DNA from: a virus
Strand: one strand, 5' to 3'
Length of the DNA: 25,993 bases
IMG/VR virus record: IMGVR_UViG_3300045116_000323
Location: 1 to 25,993 of that record
In this document: positions 4,287-25,969 of the stretch, in pieces
Layout: each line of letters begins with the position of its first letter
Numbering within the stretch: position 1 is the stretch's first letter
Position numbers and translations under genes: made by a program
Notes under the pieces: generated by a model
Seen by the model: the letters and a program-made list of their open reading frames with translations, nothing else
The model's database searches: none
Told to the model about the DNA's origin: nothing

Positions 4287-4604
4287 TCATTCAAATCTTT
4301 GGTAGATAATCTCCTCATCCGACAAATCCTCTGCCTCCTGCATCTCCTCTCTCCGCCAGCCATCCATCTTTATAGATATATATGTACCAGTAGCCCCTCC
4401 CAACGCGGCGGGGATGAAGTATAAAGGATTTTCAATCACGTTGTAAAAGCTATAAATTGACACCCCATAAAAGAATAGAGAGGCCAGCGTCGCCTGTAAC
4501 GCCTTCTTTTCCGTGACCCTCGCTATGTAGTATGCGTACACGGTATCGGCGATCATCTCCATTGTGAAGATGACCCCCGCAGTTTCCGGTGAAAACTCTG
4601 ACAT
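4287..4604 (-). CDS. Three-span membrane protein, unknown
   Basis: A 105-residue protein with three predicted membrane segments (about 9-29, 36-55 and 59-79) and an acidic cytoplasmic-type tail (residues 86-105). Lys/Arg before the second segment and after the third suggest an N-out, C-in topology. It follows the 92-residue gene with a TAA-TC-ATG junction. Proteins of this shape at the distal end of phage lysis regions include holin or antiholin candidates, but no family motif is visible. The general layout recalls DUF5698-like small membrane proteins (weak). Confidence 0.6.
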   Translation of the reverse strand: MSEFSPETAGVIFTMEMIADTVYAYYIARVTEKKALQATLASLFFYGVSIYSFYNVIENPLYFIPAALGGATGTYISIKMDGWRREEMQEAEDLSDEEIIYQRFE

Positions 4605-4606
4605 GA

Positions 4607-4885
4607 TTACTCCACATGATCCGGTAAATCTTCTCCTGTTATAGTCGCGGGTTCATCGGGATTGAGGACAACGCCTACCATCCCACCCTTGTCTACCAGG
4701 TTGATGACGACTCCCTGCCCGATGAGGTCACCGGCAAGATTGCCCGTCCCTTCAAATGCAATGGCACAATCTTTCAAACTTACTTCGCTTCCCGGTTCTA
4801 CATCCTCTGGGAGTAATACTACCACAAACGCGCCTAACGGCACGTCTTTACTGCGGATTTCAAACAGTTTACCTTCTACTCCCAT
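4607..4885 (-). CDS. Small beta-rich hypothetical protein
   Basis: A 92-residue, strongly acidic, glycine/valine-rich soluble protein. The start overlaps the HNH gene end by 10 nt and has GAGGG as SD. It ends with the NPDEPATITGEDLP motif that is partly duplicated in the 22-codon ORF at 4217-4285. No catalytic motif is visible. A structural or decoration role would suit the composition, but nothing proves it. Confidence 0.55.
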   Translation of the reverse strand: MGVEGKLFEIRSKDVPLGAFVVVLLPEDVEPGSEVSLKDCAIAFEGTGNLAGDLIGQGVVINLVDKGGMVGVVLNPDEPATITGEDLPDHVE

Positions 4886-5439
4886 AGTCCCTCAAACCAC
4901 CCCTTCTTTTTCCGTTTTCCTGCGAGCTTGTGCGGCTTCACGTCGGGTCGTGGTACCCCGTACTCTTGGGCCATTCGGTCAAATAACTCCTTTTCGTATC
5001 GTTCCGATCCCTCATCCTCATTCCAGAAACGTACGCCAGCTTCGTACAATTCTATATGCTTCTTTGCCGCACTCCTGAACGCATCCAGATCGCCCTTCCG
5101 GTATTCGTCCAGCGCCGCCCCCATATCGGGATGCCTGCTCCAATTCTCGTCGCTCCACGGGGCCAGATAGGTTTCACCGTGTTCGTCGTCTTGGGTCATG
5201 CCACTCCCCGTATGGTGTTTTTTACAACGCGGGATCGGTGTTGCATCATTGTTCGGATCGCCGCCCTCATATAGCACAACGCTTTCCGGTTCCAGATGAT
5301 CTACATCCGTAGCAATCGCACCACACAAGTGCCAGCCGTGTTGCTCATCATATATCGGAGTTATGCACTTTCCCCTTGTTACTTCTAATGCCCATCGTCT
5401 GACTTTTTCGGGGAAAGGCATAGTTAGTTTACATTCCAT
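4876..5439 (-). CDS. HNH-type zinc endonuclease-like protein
   Basis: A 187-residue protein with an HNH/beta-beta-alpha-metal layout. C25 and C39 form a first zinc pair, DVDHLEPE (45-52) supplies the catalytic-type histidine H48, N63-N64 lies in DPNND, and PRCKKHH gives C72 with H75/H76. This order (Cys...Cys, D-x-D-H, N, Cys-x2-His) is that of HNH proteins, which phages use as homing enzymes or with terminase. Here the gene lies among lysis and end genes, so a homing or packaging accessory role is open. The C-terminal 100 residues are helical and end in a basic segment (KRKKKGWFEGLWE). An internal ATG at codon 7 is an alternative start. Confidence 0.6.
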   Translation of the reverse strand: MECKLTMPFPEKVRRWALEVTRGKCITPIYDEQHGWHLCGAIATDVDHLEPESVVLYEGGDPNNDATPIPRCKKHHTGSGMTQDDEHGETYLAPWSDENWSRHPDMGAALDEYRKGDLDAFRSAAKKHIELYEAGVRFWNEDEGSERYEKELFDRMAQEYGVPRPDVKPHKLAGKRKKKGWFEGLWE

Positions 5440-7121: not shown

Positions 7122-8225
7122 TTATGCGATTCCTGCCACCTTTTTAACGCTGGCGATGGATATACCACAGATTTTTTTAAGTGAGGCATAGGATACACCG
7201 GAAACCTTTTTAATAGACGATGGTATCGTATAGGTAACGACAAGTTTTGGTTTATTTGATCCTTCCGCCGCAACAATATCAATCCGCTCGTCTTGACCGG
7301 CGGACAATGATGGATCAGTGTTGGTTCTGTCATTTGCCGTTGACCATCCGAACTTTGTTATTCCCGTCTTGCTTATATTTCCAAGGCCAGTAGAATTTAA
7401 GGGAAAATCATTATATGCCGCCGTATTCCATACAGATGTACTTGTTTGCGTATCAGATTGAAGCGTCATTGTCCAGTTTGCGATATTATAATCAGAAGCA
7501 ACAAGAGCGGTATTACTTGCGGGAACAGCAACGAGTAAGTTAATATTAAAATCTTTACCTGAATCTATGTTCTTTCCATTTCCGTAATGACTTGCGGTTG
7601 CCGCAGAAATTACTGCGGCCGCTGTTAAAGCAGAAGTATCAAAAAGTGTAATAAAACGAGACATATCATAATTTGATGCTTGTCTGAAATGCCTTATAGC
7701 TGTTCCTCCAAAAGTTGCTGAACTATCGTCCGAGTAAGTTCCGGCTGAACTTCTGCATGTTGCATAACTTTCATTACCGCCTGCACGATAAACCTGTCCA
7801 TCTACACTTGTAGATTCTGGGTGTGCGTTAGGATTAAAGGTTGTTTCAGCAAATCTTACATATAATGCCTGTGATGCCCATAGGGGTTGCCTACGAAGTC
7901 CTAAATACCACGCAAGAAGTTCCTTTGCCTCATCAAAATCCCGTATCCAATGAGAAACAAGATCAATTGTTTGTAGGGCAGGATAAATCTTTGGTGCAAA
8001 TGTAGCGCGAGTTGTTACCACAAGCTGTGCCTCTATTTTATCTTTAGCGACAGTTCCAGCTTTAATATACCCATTAGGAAGCAAAAGACCGATTTTTTCG
8101 TTTGGAATATAAAAATTGTCGTGTTTAAGGTAATCACGACCCAAATTAGTGTTTGCAAACCACGTTACGAGCTTCGCGTATTTGCGAAAGAGAGAGTTCG
8201 GATTATTGGTGTAGCAGAGATTCAT
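7122..8225 (-). CDS. Virion structural protein, probable tail-tip/receptor-binding protein
   Basis: A 367-residue beta-rich protein lying between the fibre and the lysis genes, where podoviruses keep host-recognition proteins. The N-terminal third is mixed. The centre (about 140-335) is rich in Ser/Thr/Asn/Gly like beta-sandwich or carbohydrate-binding domains. The C-terminus (338-367) consists of three copies of an 11-residue unit of form [ILV]KK[IV]xG[IV]xxAS. The start is preceded by AAAAGGAG but at an unusually long spacing of 16 nt, a leader similar to that of the major capsid gene. No enzyme motif is seen. Confidence 0.55.
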   Translation of the reverse strand: MNLCYTNNPNSLFRKYAKLVTWFANTNLGRDYLKHDNFYIPNEKIGLLLPNGYIKAGTVAKDKIEAQLVVTTRATFAPKIYPALQTIDLVSHWIRDFDEAKELLAWYLGLRRQPLWASQALYVRFAETTFNPNAHPESTSVDGQVYRAGGNESYATCRSSAGTYSDDSSATFGGTAIRHFRQASNYDMSRFITLFDTSALTAAAVISAATASHYGNGKNIDSGKDFNINLLVAVPASNTALVASDYNIANWTMTLQSDTQTSTSVWNTAAYNDFPLNSTGLGNISKTGITKFGWSTANDRTNTDPSLSAGQDERIDIVAAEGSNKPKLVVTYTIPSSIKKVSGVSYASLKKICGISIASVKKVAGIA

Positions 8226-8255
8226 AACTTATTATTTTTTACTCCTTTTAATAAT

Positions 8256-9236
8256 TTATGTGTGTTCTACTTGTACTAACTGCGGATTGAAGTAAATCCG
8301 GTCAGCATGGGTAGCAACTCCCAAAATCTGTGTTACGCTATCTGTCGTTGTCGGCGCAGTCTGTGTAATCGCCCCGGCTGTTTCCGATAAATACAACAAA
8401 CCGCCAACTGTCCAGTTCCAGCTATCATCCCTTGCAATTCCCAAAAGAAGGAAACTGCCCGATGCGTCAGCCGATATAGTTGCCAACGCTATACCAACCA
8501 CGCTTGCTGTAGCGATCGCGCTTGCGTCAGCTTTCCACATCTTGCCATCGGATTTATAGTAGCAGACATTGCCAAAAACTACACTCTCGCCTGCCGTAAA
8601 AGTTGTCTTTAGACCCGTCGCCGTAGTATCAGAAGCAGGAGATTCGGTTAATAGAACATCCAGCGCGGGATCATTGGCATAACCAATCCGGGCAACGGCA
8701 AGCTCAACAGCCGTAATCGGTGTAGGAACCGTTGTTTCCAAAACCGTAATTACTGTGTTTCCACCTGAATAGGTTGAAGAAACCACAGTAACCACAACCG
8801 ATCCGTTTATGCGTACCCTACGCCCGGCGGTGTAATAAGAAGATTGGTCAACGCTGTTTATTCTGAATTGACTGGTAGAGTTCCGGGTAAAAGTGAGTGA
8901 GGCATCTTCGGTAAGATACCCGTTTTCAAGCGCATCAACCACAAAATCCCAATGTTTTGAAGTAATTTTTTGCTTATAAGGAGTGTTAGAAAGGTGCGCA
9001 ACTCCAACTCCGCCGCTATAAACGCCGCGCTCTATGGTTACAACGCTACCCGATACACTTGTAGCGCGTACTGTTTCACGGTCATCATCACTATCCGGGT
9101 CAATCTCAATGTAAGTAGGGAGTTTGCTTGAAGCCGGAGGGTTTGATACCGTCATTGTAGTGGCAACATCCGAAAGAAGGGCAGACAAAGTGCCGCTTAA
9201 AAGCCGTTCTCCTTGTGGTAAATGCTTTAACGCCAT
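8256..9236 (-). CDS. Tail fibre-type virion protein with shared C-terminal domain
   Basis: A 326-residue structural protein. The N-terminal ~110 residues form a beta domain typical of podoviral tail-attached proteins (SGTLSALLSDVATTMTV, IEIDPDSDDDRETVRAT). A linker follows, and residues 214-326 form a C-terminal domain that is about three-quarters identical by eye to the C-terminal domain of the collagen-like protein at 22806-23630, including the identical tail LVQVEHT. This suggests a common oligomerisation or receptor domain used by two fibres. It is transcribed from its own promoter (9245-9273), whose -10 box ends 8 nt before the ATG; there is no SD, so a near-leaderless mRNA is expected. 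Confidence 0.7.
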   Translation of the reverse strand: MALKHLPQGERLLSGTLSALLSDVATTMTVSNPPASSKLPTYIEIDPDSDDDRETVRATSVSGSVVTIERGVYSGGVGVAHLSNTPYKQKITSKHWDFVVDALENGYLTEDASLTFTRNSTSQFRINSVDQSSYYTAGRRVRINGSVVVTVVSSTYSGGNTVITVLETTVPTPITAVELAVARIGYANDPALDVLLTESPASDTTATGLKTTFTAGESVVFGNVCYYKSDGKMWKADASAIATASVVGIALATISADASGSFLLLGIARDDSWNWTVGGLLYLSETAGAITQTAPTTTDSVTQILGVATHADRIYFNPQLVQVEHT

Positions 9237-9244
9237 ATAGTTAT

Positions 9245-9273
9245 ATTAGACAATTCCAGTTGGCAAATGTCAA
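9245..9273 (-). promoter_or_regulatory. Leaderless-type promoter of the fibre gene
   Basis: On the - strand: TTGACA (9273-9268), a 17-nt spacer, TCTAAT (9250-9245), then 8 nt to the ATG at 9236. No SD lies between them. Confidence 0.8.
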
Positions 9274-9275
9274 TG

Positions 9276-11198
9276 TTAGTCTATGATCGTTTCATCACGC
9301 TCGTAGTCGTAGTCCTCAACCTCAAAAGTCCCTGCCATTGTCTGTACAAGACAATGATTGAACTCGTTGCCGGTTACTTCAATCTGCGGATAAATGGAGT
9401 ACGCTTCAAACTCAAGGAGTTTCTTGAGCAGGAATATCGCATCTGGCACGCTGTCAATAGCAATGCTTTCGTCAAACATTGCCTCGTCAAACATATACTC
9501 ACCGATTCCGCCACCGGTATCAAAAGTAACGCTTCTGGTATTAACAAGCGTGGAGCCGTCTTTGTAAAGATACAGCGACATATTGCCTCGCGGATTCTTG
9601 AGCTTTACCTTAAGATCATAAAAATACTTGAGAAGCATATCTTCACCGCCATCTATGCGTTTGACGCGGAAAGTTGCGGGAATCGTATCACCCACATCAT
9701 CATAAGTATTGTCAACAAGAAGTTGGTGGATTTCGCCAGTTCCAACTTGTGCGCCATACAGCTTGTTTTGTCCTGTCCCTGCATCCCATACAATAAAACG
9801 GTCATAAAGATAGTTTGTCCATTTTCCCAAGAACCCTAAGTACCGGCGGTCATAAGGAAACGCTACGGTTTTATCACATACGATAAACTTCTGTTCATAA
9901 AATATGGCGTGAAATGCGTCAAGGTCAGTTTTATCAAGTGCATCCAACTTTGGCTGAATCCTGTTTGATATGTCGCTGGTACGGATAACATTAAGCTGCG
10001 TTGGCTCCCACCCAAGAATACGGAATCTTCCGTCAGAGCCGAAAAAGGCAATGTCTTTTTCCATGCGCCAAACCGTATCAGGTGAGCGAGTGCCATATTG
10101 CGGAATAACTGCGGTTAGAAGTGGTCCTCCATCAGAACCAAATGTAAACTTCCAAATGGAGTTTTCCTTAAAAATAAGAAGGAAGTCAGAAAACCCAATC
10201 ATTGCGGTAATTTTTTCTCCGTCGCCCCTGCCGGGTTTTACCCATCCTCCATTGTCAGAGGGAGCTAAACTTTCCCAATTTGTGCCTGTGCCTCCATAGA
10301 ATACCGTATCAACCTCGGTATCGTTGCCAGACATAAAAAGAGTATTGGCATAAGACCCGTACAGGTTTGCCTTAACCCCGCCAGTAGTGTTAAATGTCGG
10401 AGCTTCGTGAATAAGCGATTGTTCTTCCGCGCCGTTATCAACATAGGTCATGGTTGCCCCGGATGATTGCTGTGCAACAAAAGTCAAAAGCGTCATTGTT
10501 CCGTCGTCTTTTGCCCGATAGACATTATATCCACGCATATTGGAATCGGTTTTACGGGTCCAAGTAAGCGTAAAATAATGGGTGGCATCCAGCGTTGACG
10601 GTCCCATATCGCTGTCCGTTGCAGAAATTTCGGTTTCTCCCGTATCGGTTACTGCAGTAACGCCATACTCATACGCCGCATCGCTTCCTGCACCGGTTAG
10701 CGCAATGCTTAATCCCGCAGGGGTTGTTACCGCTGTCCATTCAACAATGGTACTGCCGTCAGTTTTTGCCAGATAGTCAACCGCATTACCAAAATAGAAC
10801 CAATCTCGCAAAAGAATCCCCCGCATTTTTGCCGAAGCGTCCCAAGTCTTTGTACCGTCAATTTCAGTTACCGTTCCGCTGGTGTTAATTTTATAGACAT
10901 GACCGTCAACCATGACGATCAGAAGGTTTGTTGAAGTAACCGGGTTTTTATAGATTCCCCACCCGTTGAAATTAACGCCGCCTGCAACTGTCGCAAAAAG
11001 TGTTGCACCCCTGCGCGGCATACGGATAGAAGCCTTGCCGACAATCTCTATGTTTTGCCCCTCATAAAACTCGTTGTTGCGGATTTCATTGTCTTCCGCA
11101 AAAGAGTTTTCCCCGCGCTCCCAACCCTCAAAGTCCCACGGTTTTCTGCGCGGCAATGTTGCTATCCTTTGACTGTAAAATCCTGCCCCTTCTCGCAT
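9276..11198 (-). CDS. Large tail nozzle / DNA-stabilisation-type protein
   Basis: A 640-residue protein that follows the head-tail adaptor. The sequence is built of many short beta strands with repeated aromatic 'blade-like' motifs (for example GILLRDWFYFGNAVDYL, DFLLIFKENSIWKFTF, DIAFFGSDGRFRILGW), as in beta-propeller tail nozzles and packaged-DNA stabilisation proteins of podoviruses. Residues about 160-262 resemble an inserted fibronectin type III domain (YEYGVTAVTDTGETEIS ... GYNVYRAKDDG). It would close the portal-adaptor channel and form the short tail tube. Start at ATG 11198, 8 nt after the -10 box of its own promoter. Family assignment rests on order and sequence character. Confidence 0.65.
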   Translation of the reverse strand: MREGAGFYSQRIATLPRRKPWDFEGWERGENSFAEDNEIRNNEFYEGQNIEIVGKASIRMPRRGATLFATVAGGVNFNGWGIYKNPVTSTNLLIVMVDGHVYKINTSGTVTEIDGTKTWDASAKMRGILLRDWFYFGNAVDYLAKTDGSTIVEWTAVTTPAGLSIALTGAGSDAAYEYGVTAVTDTGETEISATDSDMGPSTLDATHYFTLTWTRKTDSNMRGYNVYRAKDDGTMTLLTFVAQQSSGATMTYVDNGAEEQSLIHEAPTFNTTGGVKANLYGSYANTLFMSGNDTEVDTVFYGGTGTNWESLAPSDNGGWVKPGRGDGEKITAMIGFSDFLLIFKENSIWKFTFGSDGGPLLTAVIPQYGTRSPDTVWRMEKDIAFFGSDGRFRILGWEPTQLNVIRTSDISNRIQPKLDALDKTDLDAFHAIFYEQKFIVCDKTVAFPYDRRYLGFLGKWTNYLYDRFIVWDAGTGQNKLYGAQVGTGEIHQLLVDNTYDDVGDTIPATFRVKRIDGGEDMLLKYFYDLKVKLKNPRGNMSLYLYKDGSTLVNTRSVTFDTGGGIGEYMFDEAMFDESIAIDSVPDAIFLLKKLLEFEAYSIYPQIEVTGNEFNHCLVQTMAGTFEVEDYDYERDETIID

Positions 11199-11895: not shown

Positions 11896-11924
11896 ATTAG
11901 ACAATTTATTTAAGCAATAGTCAA
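11896..11924 (-). promoter_or_regulatory. Leaderless-type promoter of the adaptor gene
   Basis: On the - strand: TTGACT (11924-11919), a 17-nt spacer, TCTAAT (11901-11896), then 10 nt to ATG 11885. The frame's first ATG (11897) lies inside the -10 box, so it cannot be the start of a transcript from here. Confidence 0.75.
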
Positions 11925-12305: not shown

Positions 12306-12334
12306 AGTATATTTTACAATGTGTCATTTGTCAA
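12306..12334 (-). promoter_or_regulatory. Leaderless-type promoter of the C2H2 head gene
   Basis: On the - strand: TTGACA (12334-12329), a 17-nt spacer, TATACT (12311-12306), 8 nt to ATG 12297. It lies directly downstream of the terminator that ends the capsid transcript. Confidence 0.85.
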
Positions 12335-12342
12335 GTACCACG

Positions 12343-12375
12343 AAAAAAGCGGCATTGCCGCAAGCTGCCGCTTTT
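12343..12375 (-). terminator. Rho-independent terminator after the major capsid gene
   Basis: Read on the - strand, AAAAGCGGCA pairs with TGCCGCTTTT (10 bp) around an 11-nt loop and runs into a TTTTTT tract. It lies 25 nt past the capsid stop and insulates the abundant capsid transcript from the next promoter. Confidence 0.9.
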
Positions 12376-12399
12376 CTCAACAATACTCTTTAGTGCCTG

Positions 12400-20972: not shown

Positions 20973-21635
20973 ATGGATGAAATAAGAATCTTGGTGGGTA
21001 TGCCCTCAACGCAGATGATTCCCGTTTATACCGCGCGCTCGCTCATGGAATGGCAGCGATACCGCAAATATCCCTCGCAATTTCAATTCAAAATTGACAC
21101 CTACATTGAGAAAGCGCGCAATGAGCTGGTGTGGGCTGCCGTTGACCAAGGCGCAACGCACCTTATGTTCATTGATTCCGACATGGTGTTTCCATCCCAT
21201 GCCATTGACCGCATGGTGGAACAGCACAAAGATATTATCGGTGGTATGTACTTCGGCAGGATGCACCCGAAGTGCATGGCGTTCCATGTCAACCCGGATG
21301 GAACCGTAAGAAACGTTGACCCGTCAAAAGAACATGGAGTGTTTGAAGTTGATTTTGTCGGGACAGGCTTTATGCTCATAGACATCAAAGTTTTTACCAA
21401 ACTTGAACCGCCATTCTTCACATTCACCTATGACCTAACACAGTTCGGGTTAAAGAAACAGGGACCGCTGACGCTAACCGGAGAAGATACTTACTTCTGC
21501 CTGTCTGCAAAAAAGCAGGGATTCAAGGTTTGGGTAGACACCACATTTGAACTCGGTCATGTCGGAAATCATACCTATTACAAGCATGATTGGGAAGTGT
21601 ACCAAAAAGACAAGGAACTTTATGAACGAGCCTAA
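20973..21635 (+). CDS. GT-A fold glycosyltransferase
   Basis: A 220-residue cytosolic enzyme of the GT-A fold. The nucleotide-sugar/metal motif is D68-S-D70 in THLMFIDSDMVFP. Supporting motifs are IIGGMYFGR (88-96), GTGFMLIDIKV (130-140), G170-E-D in LTGEDTYFC (base region) and GHVG (195-198). The layout repeats in the paralogous gene at 22191-22763. It probably transfers a sugar onto a phage structural protein, phage DNA base or host glycan. The overlapping start of the methyltransferase and the nearby fibre gene suggest a joint modification pathway. The acceptor is not identifiable. Confidence 0.75.
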   Translation: MDEIRILVGMPSTQMIPVYTARSLMEWQRYRKYPSQFQFKIDTYIEKARNELVWAAVDQGATHLMFIDSDMVFPSHAIDRMVEQHKDIIGGMYFGRMHPKCMAFHVNPDGTVRNVDPSKEHGVFEVDFVGTGFMLIDIKVFTKLEPPFFTFTYDLTQFGLKKQGPLTLTGEDTYFCLSAKKQGFKVWVDTTFELGHVGNHTYYKHDWEVYQKDKELYERA

Positions 21636-22194
21636 TTTTACCGCCGACTGGTTTACCGGCAATATCCGAATCTGGGAACGGATACTCGCGCCATACAAAG
21701 AGAAACCGAACCTTCATTTTCTTGAAATAGGATGTTTTGAAGGAAGGGCTACCATCTGGCTTTTGGAAAATATACTGACCGGAGAATATTGCGACATTAT
21801 CGTCATTGATACATTTAAGGCATCCGATGAACACGGAAAAGATATGAGCGTTGGTTTGGAAACCAGATTTCGCAAAAACATTGAGGCATATAACAACAGG
21901 ATAATTGTAAAAAAGGGAATGTCACAGGACTGGCTCCGCATAATGGAAGGAAACGCATTTGATGTCATCTATATTGACGGATCGCATTATGCCGCCGATG
22001 TATTGTCCGATGCGGTTCTCTCCTTCCCGCTTCTTAAATCCGGCGGTATTATGATCTTTGACGATTACCAATGGCGGCCATATTCGGAGGAATGGAAAAT
22101 GCCGCGCGCGGCAATCAACGGGTTCTGCGCAAGCTATGAAAATAAAACAGAAATCATCCATGTCGGATACCAGCTTATCTTAAAAAAACTATGA
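21622..22194 (+). CDS. Class I SAM-dependent methyltransferase (Methyltransf_24-like)
   Basis: A 190-residue protein starting at ATG 21622 (AAGGA 5 nt upstream), 14 nt inside the preceding gene; the frame is open to 21547 but the upstream part is a shadow. It has a Rossmann methyltransferase core: motif I LEIGCFEGRAT (34-44), an acidic residue ending strand 2 (D63 in VIDTF), VIYIDGSHYAAD (115-126) and IMIFDDYQW (143-151) with the metal-binding-type acids of catechol/sugar O-methyltransferases. This points to O-methylation of a sugar or small molecule. Its stop overlaps the next glycosyltransferase start (ATGA). It probably acts on the same glycan. Confidence 0.75.
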   Translation: MNEPNFTADWFTGNIRIWERILAPYKEKPNLHFLEIGCFEGRATIWLLENILTGEYCDIIVIDTFKASDEHGKDMSVGLETRFRKNIEAYNNRIIVKKGMSQDWLRIMEGNAFDVIYIDGSHYAADVLSDAVLSFPLLKSGGIMIFDDYQWRPYSEEWKMPRAAINGFCASYENKTEIIHVGYQLILKKL

Positions 22195-22763
22195 CACCAA
22201 AGCTCTTTGTCGGTATGCACTCATGGGGAATGATAAAAACAAAAACCTTCATGTCGTTTGTTTCAGCTTTTTCACGGCTGCCGTTTTCGTATAAGCTGGT
22301 GGTGCATGAAGGCGCATACTGCCATTACTCACGCAATAAAATAGTATCCGGAGCAATCAATGGAGAAGCCACACACCTTATGCTTGTTGATGGAGATTTA
22401 ACTTTTCCGCCGGATTCGGTGAATCGGCTTTTTACACACAACCGCGATGTAGTCGGAGCATTGTACTACCGCAGGCAGCTGCCGAAATCCCCGACCTTTT
22501 CACAGATATCGGAAGGAAAACTTTATGTACCGGAGTTTATACCCGACAAACCTTTCAAGGTTTTTGCCATGGCTCCGGGATTCATGCTCATCAATGTTGA
22601 GGTCTTAAAAAAGATTCCCGACCCGTGGTTCTATTTTGAAAACTGGAACGGGCAGGAACTCGGCGAGGATGTGTACTTCTGCAAGAAAGTCCACGAGGCG
22701 GGTTTTGACATTTGGTGCGATCCGACCATAGACATAAAACATATCGGCGACTATTCTTATTAA
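22191..22763 (+). CDS. GT-A fold glycosyltransferase, paralogue of the gene at 20973
   Basis: A 190-residue enzyme coupled to the methyltransferase by an ATGA overlap. Motifs in the same order as the first glycosyltransferase: SRNKIVSGAINGEATHLML, D67-G-D69 in VDGDLTFPPDS, VVGALYYRR (87-95), APGFMLINVEV (128-138), G158-E-D in LGEDVYFCKK and a final HIGDYSY (184-190). It is shorter than its paralogue at the C-terminus and ends right after the HIG motif. Probably adds a second sugar to the same acceptor. No terminator follows; the fibre promoter begins 5 nt downstream. Confidence 0.75.
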   Translation: MTPKLFVGMHSWGMIKTKTFMSFVSAFSRLPFSYKLVVHEGAYCHYSRNKIVSGAINGEATHLMLVDGDLTFPPDSVNRLFTHNRDVVGALYYRRQLPKSPTFSQISEGKLYVPEFIPDKPFKVFAMAPGFMLINVEVLKKIPDPWFYFENWNGQELGEDVYFCKKVHEAGFDIWCDPTIDIKHIGDYSY

Positions 22764-22768
22764 CCTTC

Positions 22769-23645
<877 letters not shown>

Positions 23646-23651
23646 GTTTGT

Positions 23652-24512
23652 ATGCAGACTGTTGGCGCATACATTATCGCCAAGAATGAAGAAGCGATGG
23701 TCGGCAACTGCCTTTCCTCCCTCAAGGGCATAGATGAAATAGTTTTTGCAGATACCGGCTCTACGGACAAAACCATTGAAATCGCCAACGCGCATGATGT
23801 TAAACTTTTTACCGACTATACATGGGAGGACCACTTCTCAAAAGCGAGAAACCACGCGCTGACGAAATGCACAAAAGACTGGATACTGCGGATTGACTGC
23901 GACGAAACGCTTGAACCCGGCGGACTGGATAAAATCCGCAGGTTGATTGAAACCACGGAACACTCGGTTATTGATGTAACCATGTCTTACCCGCCCCACT
24001 CGCACTACGAACCCCGGCTGTTCCGCAATACTCCGGCGCATTTTTACATCGGCGCATCCCATGAGTATTTGAGCGTGCCGGGACAAATGATGAGCGACAT
24101 TGTTTTATTTGCCGGTGTTTCTCCAAACCATAAGAAAGACCCATTGCAGGCAACGCGCATCCTCAAAAAAGAACTGGACAAAAACCCCAACCTTGTGCGG
24201 GAGAAGTTTTACTATGCGCGGGAGCTATATTTACATGGCGACTACGGCAACGCAATTCTTTGGTTTGACAAGTACTTGCCGGTGTCAACATGGATATGGG
24301 AAAAAGCGGAAGCCTACTACTTCAAAGCTCTGTCGTTATGGAAGGCATACGAAGGAGAGCGTGCGCGCCGCACCATATTGCAGGCAATCCTTGTCAACCC
24401 GGACATGAAAAAAGCATGGGAACTTATGGCGGAGATGAACTACGAACCAAAACGGAGCGTATGGAAGAAACACGCGGAGATTGCAACGAACGAAAATGTT
24501 ATTTTCAAATGA
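23652..24512 (+). CDS. Family 2 glycosyltransferase with TPR-like C-terminus
   Basis: A 286-residue protein. Residues 1-160 are a GT2 domain with AYIIAKNEE (6-14), DEIVFADTGSTDKT (28-41), W58 and HFSKARNHAL (61-70), and the DxD equivalent D82-C-D84-E85 in RIDCDETLEPG. From about residue 165 on, helical repeats of TPR type follow (TRILKKELDKNP; YYARELYLHGDYGNAI; EAYYFKALSLWKAYEG). This architecture is common in bacterial and phage GT2 proteins that modify proteins or small glycans. Third sugar transferase of this cluster; the TPR part may bind the acceptor. The frame is clean; the start is fixed by the promoter. Confidence 0.8.
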   Translation: MQTVGAYIIAKNEEAMVGNCLSSLKGIDEIVFADTGSTDKTIEIANAHDVKLFTDYTWEDHFSKARNHALTKCTKDWILRIDCDETLEPGGLDKIRRLIETTEHSVIDVTMSYPPHSHYEPRLFRNTPAHFYIGASHEYLSVPGQMMSDIVLFAGVSPNHKKDPLQATRILKKELDKNPNLVREKFYYARELYLHGDYGNAILWFDKYLPVSTWIWEKAEAYYFKALSLWKAYEGERARRTILQAILVNPDMKKAWELMAEMNYEPKRSVWKKHAEIATNENVIFK

Positions 24513-24517
24513 AGCAC

Positions 24518-24546
24518 TTGACAGAAGAAAATAATAATTGTCTAAT
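24518..24546 (+). promoter_or_regulatory. Leaderless-type promoter of the 24553 gene
   Basis: TTGACA (24518-24523), a 17-nt spacer, TCTAAT (24541-24546), 6 nt to ATG 24553. The longest frame would start with a TTG inside the promoter (24538), so ATG 24553 is the start. Confidence 0.85.
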
Positions 24547-24552
24547 CACAGT

Positions 24553-25260
24553 ATGAGCAACAGAATAAATCTTGACCACATCCTTCCGGTGAAAAAAACC
24601 CTCACCTTTGATGAGAGTCTTGCCTATGCGCAGGGAACCATCACATCGGACGGAACAGTCGCAGATGACGGCGACACCATAACCATCGGAAGCAAAACCT
24701 ACACTTTCAAAACCGCGCTTTCGGATCCGGCAGTTGTCAATGAAGTGTTAATCGGCGCATCTGCGGCAGCAATGCTTGATAACTTAAAAGCCGCAGTCAA
24801 CGGCGCAGCAGGAGAAGGGACGCTCTATTCAACCGGAACCACAGCCAATGCGCAGGCGCAGGCAACTACCAACACAGACACAACGCAACTCATTGTCGCT
24901 CTGACAATCGGAGAAGCAGGAAATTCGGTGGTATTTACCGAAAGTGCCGCACACACAACGGTATCCGGTTCAGGTACGCTTACCGGCGGAGGAGCCAATG
25001 AACTGACCGAGGCAATCGGCGGAGAGGGCGGAATGTGTAGCGCAATCATCATCAATGCCCCGGACTTCACGGGAAGCATCACCATGACGGTATCAATCCT
25101 TGACGCGGATAGCGACCTTCTGTTTGAATCCACGCCGGTTAATGAAAACGCAGTAACGCGCATTGTGGTTGAACAGGTGCTTATGCCGGATGACATCATT
25201 AAAATTGTCGCAAGCGGAGAGGTTGAGGAATCCCTTGACCTTGAAGTGAGCATCAGATAA
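24553..25260 (+). CDS. Beta-rich virion protein, probable head decoration/fibre component
   Basis: A 235-residue protein starting at ATG 24553. The middle contains a module seen in many phage virion proteins (GTITSDGTVADDGDTITIG then a YTFKT strand, 'IGASAAAMLDNLKAAVNG', ATTNTDTTQLIV), a compact beta-sandwich often found in tail or decoration proteins. The C-terminal ~90 residues (SAIIINAPDFTGSITMTVSI ... LEVSIR) form a second beta domain. There is no signal peptide and no cysteine pair. Position between the glycosyltransferase and the capsid-staple-like gene suggests a surface protein of the head. The exact location is not provable from sequence. Confidence 0.6.
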   Translation: MSNRINLDHILPVKKTLTFDESLAYAQGTITSDGTVADDGDTITIGSKTYTFKTALSDPAVVNEVLIGASAAAMLDNLKAAVNGAAGEGTLYSTGTTANAQAQATTNTDTTQLIVALTIGEAGNSVVFTESAAHTTVSGSGTLTGGGANELTEAIGGEGGMCSAIIINAPDFTGSITMTVSILDADSDLLFESTPVNENAVTRIVVEQVLMPDDIIKIVASGEVEESLDLEVSIR

Positions 25261-25262
25261 CT

Positions 25263-25637
25263 ATGAACAAAATGACGGACATGGGTAAAAAAATGGAGAA
25301 ACCGCAAGTAGAGCCGGTCCCATCCACAAAAGATGATGTTTCCTACCCTCATCTCTACATTGATTCCGACCAGATGCCGGACCTTAAAGGAGTAGAGGTC
25401 GGCGATGAGATAGTCCTCACGGTTAAGGCAAAAGTAACCGGAGTGCGCAGCGAAGAGCATGACGGAAAATCCTGCACCTACTACGACATAGACCTCATGG
25501 AAGGCATGATGGAAGGTGCAAAGCAATCCAAAGACAATGAGGACATCTCCGGCATGATGGGAAAGAAAAAAGACAAGATGAGCGAGATGATCGGAGAAGC
25601 AGAGGACAACAAGGAACTTGACAAGGAAGAGGAATAA
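25263..25637 (+). CDS. Capsid-staple-like acidic head protein
   Basis: A 124-residue acidic protein following the decoration gene after 2 nt. The core SYPHLYIDSDQMPDL (27-41), VGDEIVLTVKAKVTGV (46-61) and CTYYDIDLM (71-79) follows the pattern of small 'capsid staple' proteins that reinforce SU10-type shells. The last ~45 residues are a Met/Lys/Glu/Asp-rich helical tail. There is no SD at the start, so it is translated by coupling with the upstream gene. Family assignment is from memory of the pattern and moderate only. Confidence 0.5.
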   Translation: MNKMTDMGKKMEKPQVEPVPSTKDDVSYPHLYIDSDQMPDLKGVEVGDEIVLTVKAKVTGVRSEEHDGKSCTYYDIDLMEGMMEGAKQSKDNEDISGMMGKKKDKMSEMIGEAEDNKELDKEEE

Positions 25638-25646
25638 TAATATAGT
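25618..25646 (+). promoter_or_regulatory. Promoter of the structured RNA at 25649-25729
   Basis: TTGACA (25618-25623), a 17-nt spacer, TATAGT (25641-25646). It lies across the 3' end of the staple-like gene. Expected start of transcription is near 25652-25654, i.e. 76-78 nt before the next ATG, unlike the leaderless members of the set. Confidence 0.75.
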
Positions 25647-25648
25647 TT

Positions 25649-25729
25649 GGATACAGACAGATTCGCAACCCTCGCATGGGTACAGGTTTCTGACGCGAAT
25701 CTGTGCCTGTATCCAGGCGAGGGTTTTTT
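25649..25729 (+). ncRNA. Switch-like structured RNA / attenuator ending in a T-run
   Basis: Two incompatible folds are visible. Fold A: 25649-25666 pairs with 25695-25714 (18 bp with a 2-nt bulge). Fold B: AACCCTCGC (25667-25675) pairs with GCGAGGGTT (25717-25725), enclosing GGGTACAGG (25678-25686) paired with CCTGTATCC (25706-25714, one G-U). This forms a stacked hairpin followed directly by the remaining T tract. Fold B is a Rho-independent terminator and fold A disrupts it. With its own promoter this makes either a terminated ~77-nt small RNA or an attenuator for the gene at 25730, whose ATG touches the T-run. No known riboswitch class is recognised. Confidence 0.65.
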
Positions 25730-25969
25730 ATGAAAGGCTTTAATTGGGAAAAAATACGCAGAGAAGATGCGTTTCTACGGACGCAAAAAATTCTCATTCC
25801 ACCCAGAGAGCGAATGAGCAGACAATTACCATCGGAAAAACAACTCCTATTTATTCAATCTCTCGGATACTCCGGCAAAAAACCATCCTCAAAACTTCAC
25901 GCATCACACATTATTGAAACCTGTTTAACAAACAAGCGGATATTCGGAGAAAAGCACTCTTATATGTAA
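25730..25969 (+). CDS. Small hypothetical protein downstream of the attenuator-like RNA
   Basis: A 79-residue protein. ATG 25730 is used; the frame also opens at GTG 25703 inside the RNA hairpin, which is unlikely. It is basic, with a central ROLP-type patch (MSRQLPSEKQLLFIQSLGY, about 28-46) and then SSKLHASHIIETCL, resembling short 'P-x-E-K-Q...LGY.G..P' modules found in small phage and bacterial proteins. No SD is present, since the T-run immediately precedes the ATG. Expression should depend on read-through of the terminator-like structure. Function unknown. Confidence 0.5.
   Translation: MKGFNWEKIRREDAFLRTQKILIPPRERMSRQLPSEKQLLFIQSLGYSGKKPSSKLHASHIIETCLTNKRIFGEKHSYM

Follow-up and report, generated by a model that had tools for sequence, protein, structure and literature searches.

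The window analysed here is the whole 25,993-base virus record IMGVR_UViG_3300045116_000323, from an uncultivated phage that carries a terminase and an SU10-type capsid and portal. Its structural genes run leftward from 20924 and a rightward gene set spans 20973 to 25637, followed by a leader element and then by a 79-aa ORF at 25730; the contig ends at 25993 (Table 1). Two glycosyltransferase-like genes adjoin the terminase (20973-21635 and 22191-22763) and look like mutual duplicates, since both match the same regions in relatives. The operon that includes p25263, the gene immediately preceding the element, would supply read-through transcripts across it, and the leaderless promoter listed upstream is the likely source of such RNA.

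Table 1. Features of the leader element and its surroundings in the window.
Feature	Position	Strand	Basis or remark
Upstream leaderless promoter, TTGACA-17-TCTAAT	24518..24546	+	Precedes ATG 24553 (genes 24553-25637)
p25263, 124-aa acidic protein upstream of the element	25263..25637	+	Homologue in relative L004 5229-5600, 39% identical
Promoter P, TTGACA (25618-25623), 17-nt spacer, TATAGT (25641-25646)	25618..25646	+	11/12 matches
Arm A, 5' strand of H1 (competing/antiterminator helix)	25649..25666	+	Each base pair checked individually
Expected transcription start, an A 7 nt past the -10 and within arm A of H1	25653	+	Inferred from the -10 position only
Arm B, 5' strand of terminator hairpin T	25667..25686	+	Fold, inverted-repeat search, pairing check
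Arm C, GCGAATCTGT, inner 3' strand of H1, partner of 25657-25666	25695..25704	+	Pairing check
Arm D, CCTGTATCC, common to H1 (as 25707-25714) and T	25706..25714	+	Fold and pairing checks
Arm E with T-run; 25717-25725 pairs at the base of T, TTTTTT occupies 25724-25729; SD GAGG 25719-25722 included	25715..25729	+	Fold, SD analysis
p25730, 79-aa ORF, ribosome-binding site in the terminator 3' arm; C-terminal module LPSEKQL-LGYSG-P-S-AS-I	25730..25969	+	39% identity/69 aa to RNase H family protein

Two long helices, H1 and T, can form within 25649-25725, and the strand CCTGTATCC is common to both. H1 consists of 18 Watson-Crick pairs (25649-25656 with 25707-25714 and 25657-25666 with 25695-25704) interrupted by a 2-nt bulge at 25705-25706, and the segment that contains it (25649-25714) has a fold energy of -32.3 kcal/mol (z -6.1 against dinucleotide shuffles). 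T pairs 25667-25675 with 25717-25725 and, beyond a 2x2 internal loop, 25678-25686 with 25706-25714, and runs into TTTTTT at 25724-25729; its segment (25665-25730) has a fold energy of -35.6 (z -7.1, likewise against dinucleotide shuffles). T is unmatched in length among the nearby inverted repeats of the window and ranks first by hairpin energy among 293 terminator-like sites found in 31 scanned sequences, which comprise the window and the loci of near and more distant relatives and include some overlapping pieces of the same contigs. Read on the minus strand, the same hairpins have no T-run behind them.

Because 25707-25714 is used by both helices, H1 and T are mutually exclusive. Chance formation of H1 was assessed by holding the terminator arms fixed and shuffling only the upstream arm and the loop; none of 5000 such shuffles matched the energy of the competing fold (observed -32.3; mean -19.7, sd 2.6). 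The competing helix is thus beyond chance and is not a by-product of the terminator. The initial annotation had described a two-part terminator hairpin ending in a T-run, an 18-bp stem that excludes it by competing for one strand, and the attenuator-like logic that follows from such an arrangement. The hairpin, the exclusivity and the logic are all present at the positions given above; the stem has its 18 pairs, with the bulge, but would be only 14 bp long in an RNA that starts near 25653.

The same annotation had recognised a promoter with a 17-bp spacer ahead of these helices, and promoter P, whose -35 lies within the last codons of p25263, agrees with this assignment: the window has four sites that match at least 11 of the 12 positions, where 20 shuffles averaged 0.55. 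Promoters of this phage follow a common pattern (a -35 of TTGACA with at most one mismatch, a 17-base spacer and a -10 such as TCTAAT or TATAAT), and in nearly all of those other than P the -10 ends 6-10 nt ahead of an ATG, as seen for the starts at 24553, 22806, 18482, 11198, 9236, 20924, 14665 and 12297; at a similar promoter, that at 11904, it is less clear which start codon applies. Messages from these promoters would have little or no leader, as had been suggested, and leaderless messages are reported to be common in certain bacterial groups (PMC3160421). Promoter P shares their -35 and spacing, and yet the first listed start codon (25730) lies 84 bases past its -10. The expected 77-nt leader is therefore exceptional, in line with the earlier remark that a dedicated leader stands out in this phage. 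Besides the expected start, positions 25651-25654 are plausible alternatives.

The exact promoter block TTGTCTAAT occurs five times in the window (24538+, 18499-, 11904-, 11215- and 9253-) and represents the form TTGACA-17-TCTAAT, usually 6-8 nt before an ATG (11904 again being less clear). A related block, ATAATCTAAT, precedes 22806, and some relatives carry TTGTATAAT in place of TTGTCTAAT. Simple promoter scans miss TTGACA-17-TCTAAT because of the C at position 2 of its -10. Elsewhere, a strong terminator-like hairpin with a T-run (12349-12378, minus strand, stem 12361-12349) lies directly upstream of a leaderless promoter at 12334.

The position of the hairpin, about 30 nt past the stop codon of p25263, would also suit an ordinary terminator at the end of the operon 24553-25637, with the promoter match coincidental or driving little and p25730 expressed by read-through; non-coding gaps occur where converging operons meet in two relatives, L004 and L086. 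We regard this explanation as unlikely: promoter P matches 11 of 12 positions at the phage's own spacing, and a simple terminator would have no need of a competing helix.

The hairpin T and its TTTTTT stand directly before the ATG at 25730. The initial annotation had described the ORF that starts there as having no SD; this proved mistaken, as GAGG at 25719-25722 lies 7 nt before the ATG, and its duplex with the anti-SD is predicted at -7.8 kcal/mol, a value similar to those of the phage's other SD-led genes. Since GAGG falls within the 3' arm of T, the T fold would hide the SD and H1 would leave it free. An Allomeiothermus silvanus protein of the ribonuclease H family aligns through its C-terminus with p25730, at 39% identity over 69 residues (database E 2e-3), which supports p25730 as a real gene. 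Searches of Pfam, PHROGs and NCBIfam assigned p25730 to no family, and viral contigs yielded no relatives of it.

The balance between the two folds is predicted to depend on where the RNA begins. A start near 25653 would drop GGAT (25649-25652) from the transcript; the full H1 stem is possible only in read-through RNA, where it can be extended by at most four more pairs, to about 22. For RNA 25653-25729 the predicted energies are -35.6 for T and -26.7 for H1, a preference for T of 8.9 kcal/mol, and for RNA 25640-25729 they are -40.2 and -39.4, a preference of 0.8 kcal/mol. In RNA that begins at 25600 and ends at 25729 the two folds are predicted to be near a tie, and the addition of downstream sequence is predicted to move the balance toward H1 for RNAs that start at 25640-25649. 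Loss of the outer four H1 pairs, as expected for a start at about 25653, would consequently shift the balance by about 8 kcal/mol. The predicted direct-path barrier between the folds is about 25-30 kcal/mol, and which fold forms is therefore probably decided while the RNA is being made. In a rough co-transcriptional walk, promoter-made RNA mostly adopted H1-type folds, opposite to the equilibrium prediction, and longer RNA gave variable results; since the result of the walk shifts with the threshold and with the random sampling of candidate folds, we set it aside as evidence on the direction of the switch.

The equilibrium preference for T in promoter-made RNA would also be consistent with a stand-alone phage small RNA gene, consisting of a promoter, a 77-nt body and an ordinary intrinsic terminator, in which H1 would be a stable folding intermediate or part of the RNA body and no switch would operate. 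Genes of this kind usually have a promoter with a strong terminator directly after it, and we consider this explanation possible, if doubtful. It leaves unexplained both a competing helix of 14-18 bp on the terminator strand and the use of the 3' arm as the SD of a gene that begins right after the T-run, and a search of the phage for antisense targets of the 77-nt RNA found no complementarity outside the element longer than 11 nt, this longest match being complementary to the T-run together with its flank.

The most economical account of all the features, to which we give an even chance, is an attenuator-type phage leader that would double as a small RNA and whose terminator would also cap the ribosome-binding site of a small gene. 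In such a mechanism, promoter P would start an RNA of about 77 nt in which arm B may pair with arms D and E to form T, whereupon RNA polymerase would stop at the T-run and release a short RNA, and T in any read-through RNA would bury GAGG. Were arm A instead to take arms C and D first, giving H1, no terminator would form, GAGG would be free, and the 79-aa gene at 25730 could be both transcribed and translated. Because promoter P is expected to start transcription inside arm A, promoter-made RNA would lack the outer H1 pairs and strongly prefer T at equilibrium, and RNA from the upstream operon would carry all of arm A and lie near balance between H1 and T. In its simplest use, transcript origin, together with folding kinetics or a trans-acting factor, would decide the expression of p25730.

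A stricter version of this attenuator-type reading, to which we assign a rather low probability, is a ligand-free switch in which the 5' end of the transcript itself serves as signal: transcripts of the local promoter, lacking the outer four antiterminator pairs, would terminate and bury the SD, and those of the upstream operon, carrying the full antiterminator, would turn p25730 on, so that the gene would be coupled to upstream transcription in the absence of a regulator protein. If true, this would be a compact example of a single hairpin arm acting as terminator, SD cap and competitor strand, with the outcome set by the position of a promoter inside the antiterminator arm. The construct is small and the proposal directly testable.

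The closest working parallels, by analogy, appear to be IsrK of the Salmonella prophage Gifsy-1 and gene e of phage T4. In IsrK, a small RNA promoter, read-through of a terminator and alternative structures control a small ORF, with RNA structures of nearly equal energy deciding downstream translation (PMC4825925). At the level of sequence features the element resembles IsrK in being phage-borne, with its own promoter, an intrinsic terminator, a small ORF downstream and an RNA of about 80 nt; the regulatory helix of IsrK, however, pairs with the ORF and its short RNA acts in trans, whereas the competing helix of the element would act on the terminator itself. In the leader of T4 gene e (lysozyme), as in those of soc and 49, transcript origin decides access to the SD (reviewed in PMC3014915). 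In gene e, a helix present in long transcripts is missing its 5' strand in promoter transcripts, whereas the expected start inside arm A would remove only the outer four pairs of H1. The sign also differs at the predicted equilibrium, as the long transcript of gene e hides the SD and the short one exposes it, while the long RNA of the element would gain an SD-freeing helix; the other fold of the element is, in addition, a candidate transcription terminator.

A terminator and a competing helix likewise meet on a common strand in bacterial attenuators and expression platforms, as in the trp, rplJL and similar leaders (PMC3913778, PMC4538822). Unlike these leaders, the element has no known signal, leader peptide, protein site or relatives. 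Exclusivity between a terminator and a competitor is the expression-platform logic of ligand- or protein-sensing switches, and the initial annotation had accordingly raised a ligand-sensing riboswitch, along with a packaging or antitermination RNA. These proposals gained no backing from our searches, which yielded no Rfam match, no conserved aptamer and no homologue. That the element is strictly a riboswitch or a protein-bound attenuator seems to us very unlikely, as it would belong to no Rfam family and have no conserved binding core and no relatives, and the two helices use most of the 77 nt and leave little room for an aptamer. CRISPR repeat units are about 28-37 nt long. An RNA anti-CRISPR, that is a solitary CRISPR repeat, or a packaging RNA is the least probable of the explanations considered, and extremely unlikely. 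Solitary repeat units are often found immediately after a phage promoter (PMC10651486). Stems of 18 bp and an intrinsic terminator, however, are unlike a repeat unit.

Rfam searches at the gathering score gave no match to the element, and at relaxed thresholds gave only matches of weak E-value to eukaryotic microRNA and U6 models. Phage and plasmid sequences held no convincing similarity to the region or its RNA. The shared-strand pattern was found in no viral contig and eight times in genome contigs, where we estimate that about 7-8 matches would be expected by chance, and none of these eight has a comparable T-run terminator behind it.

Scans with the terminase and portal identified about ten contigs of one clade, with terminases about 52-62% identical where well covered. 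No cultivated representative of this phage group came to light. The element is absent from all relatives found, several of whose contigs break off before the corresponding place. As no relative carries it, neither conservation nor covariation speaks for or against the structure. The nearest and syntenic relative, L004, has a different non-coding stretch after its p25263 homologue, and in relative L005 the next gene follows that homologue directly. The stretch in L004 comprises about 600 apparently non-coding nucleotides (4600-5228, minus strand) and is modestly structured (z -3.1 for 4940-5228), with no Rfam match, no tRNA and no strong promoter or terminator. In a further relative, L003 (IMGVR_UViG_3300038566_000387), a 542-aa protein encoded at 8491-10119 reads by eye like a full GroEL-type chaperonin, and its gene is preceded by an ORF at 8193-8489 that, by eye, appears GroES-like.
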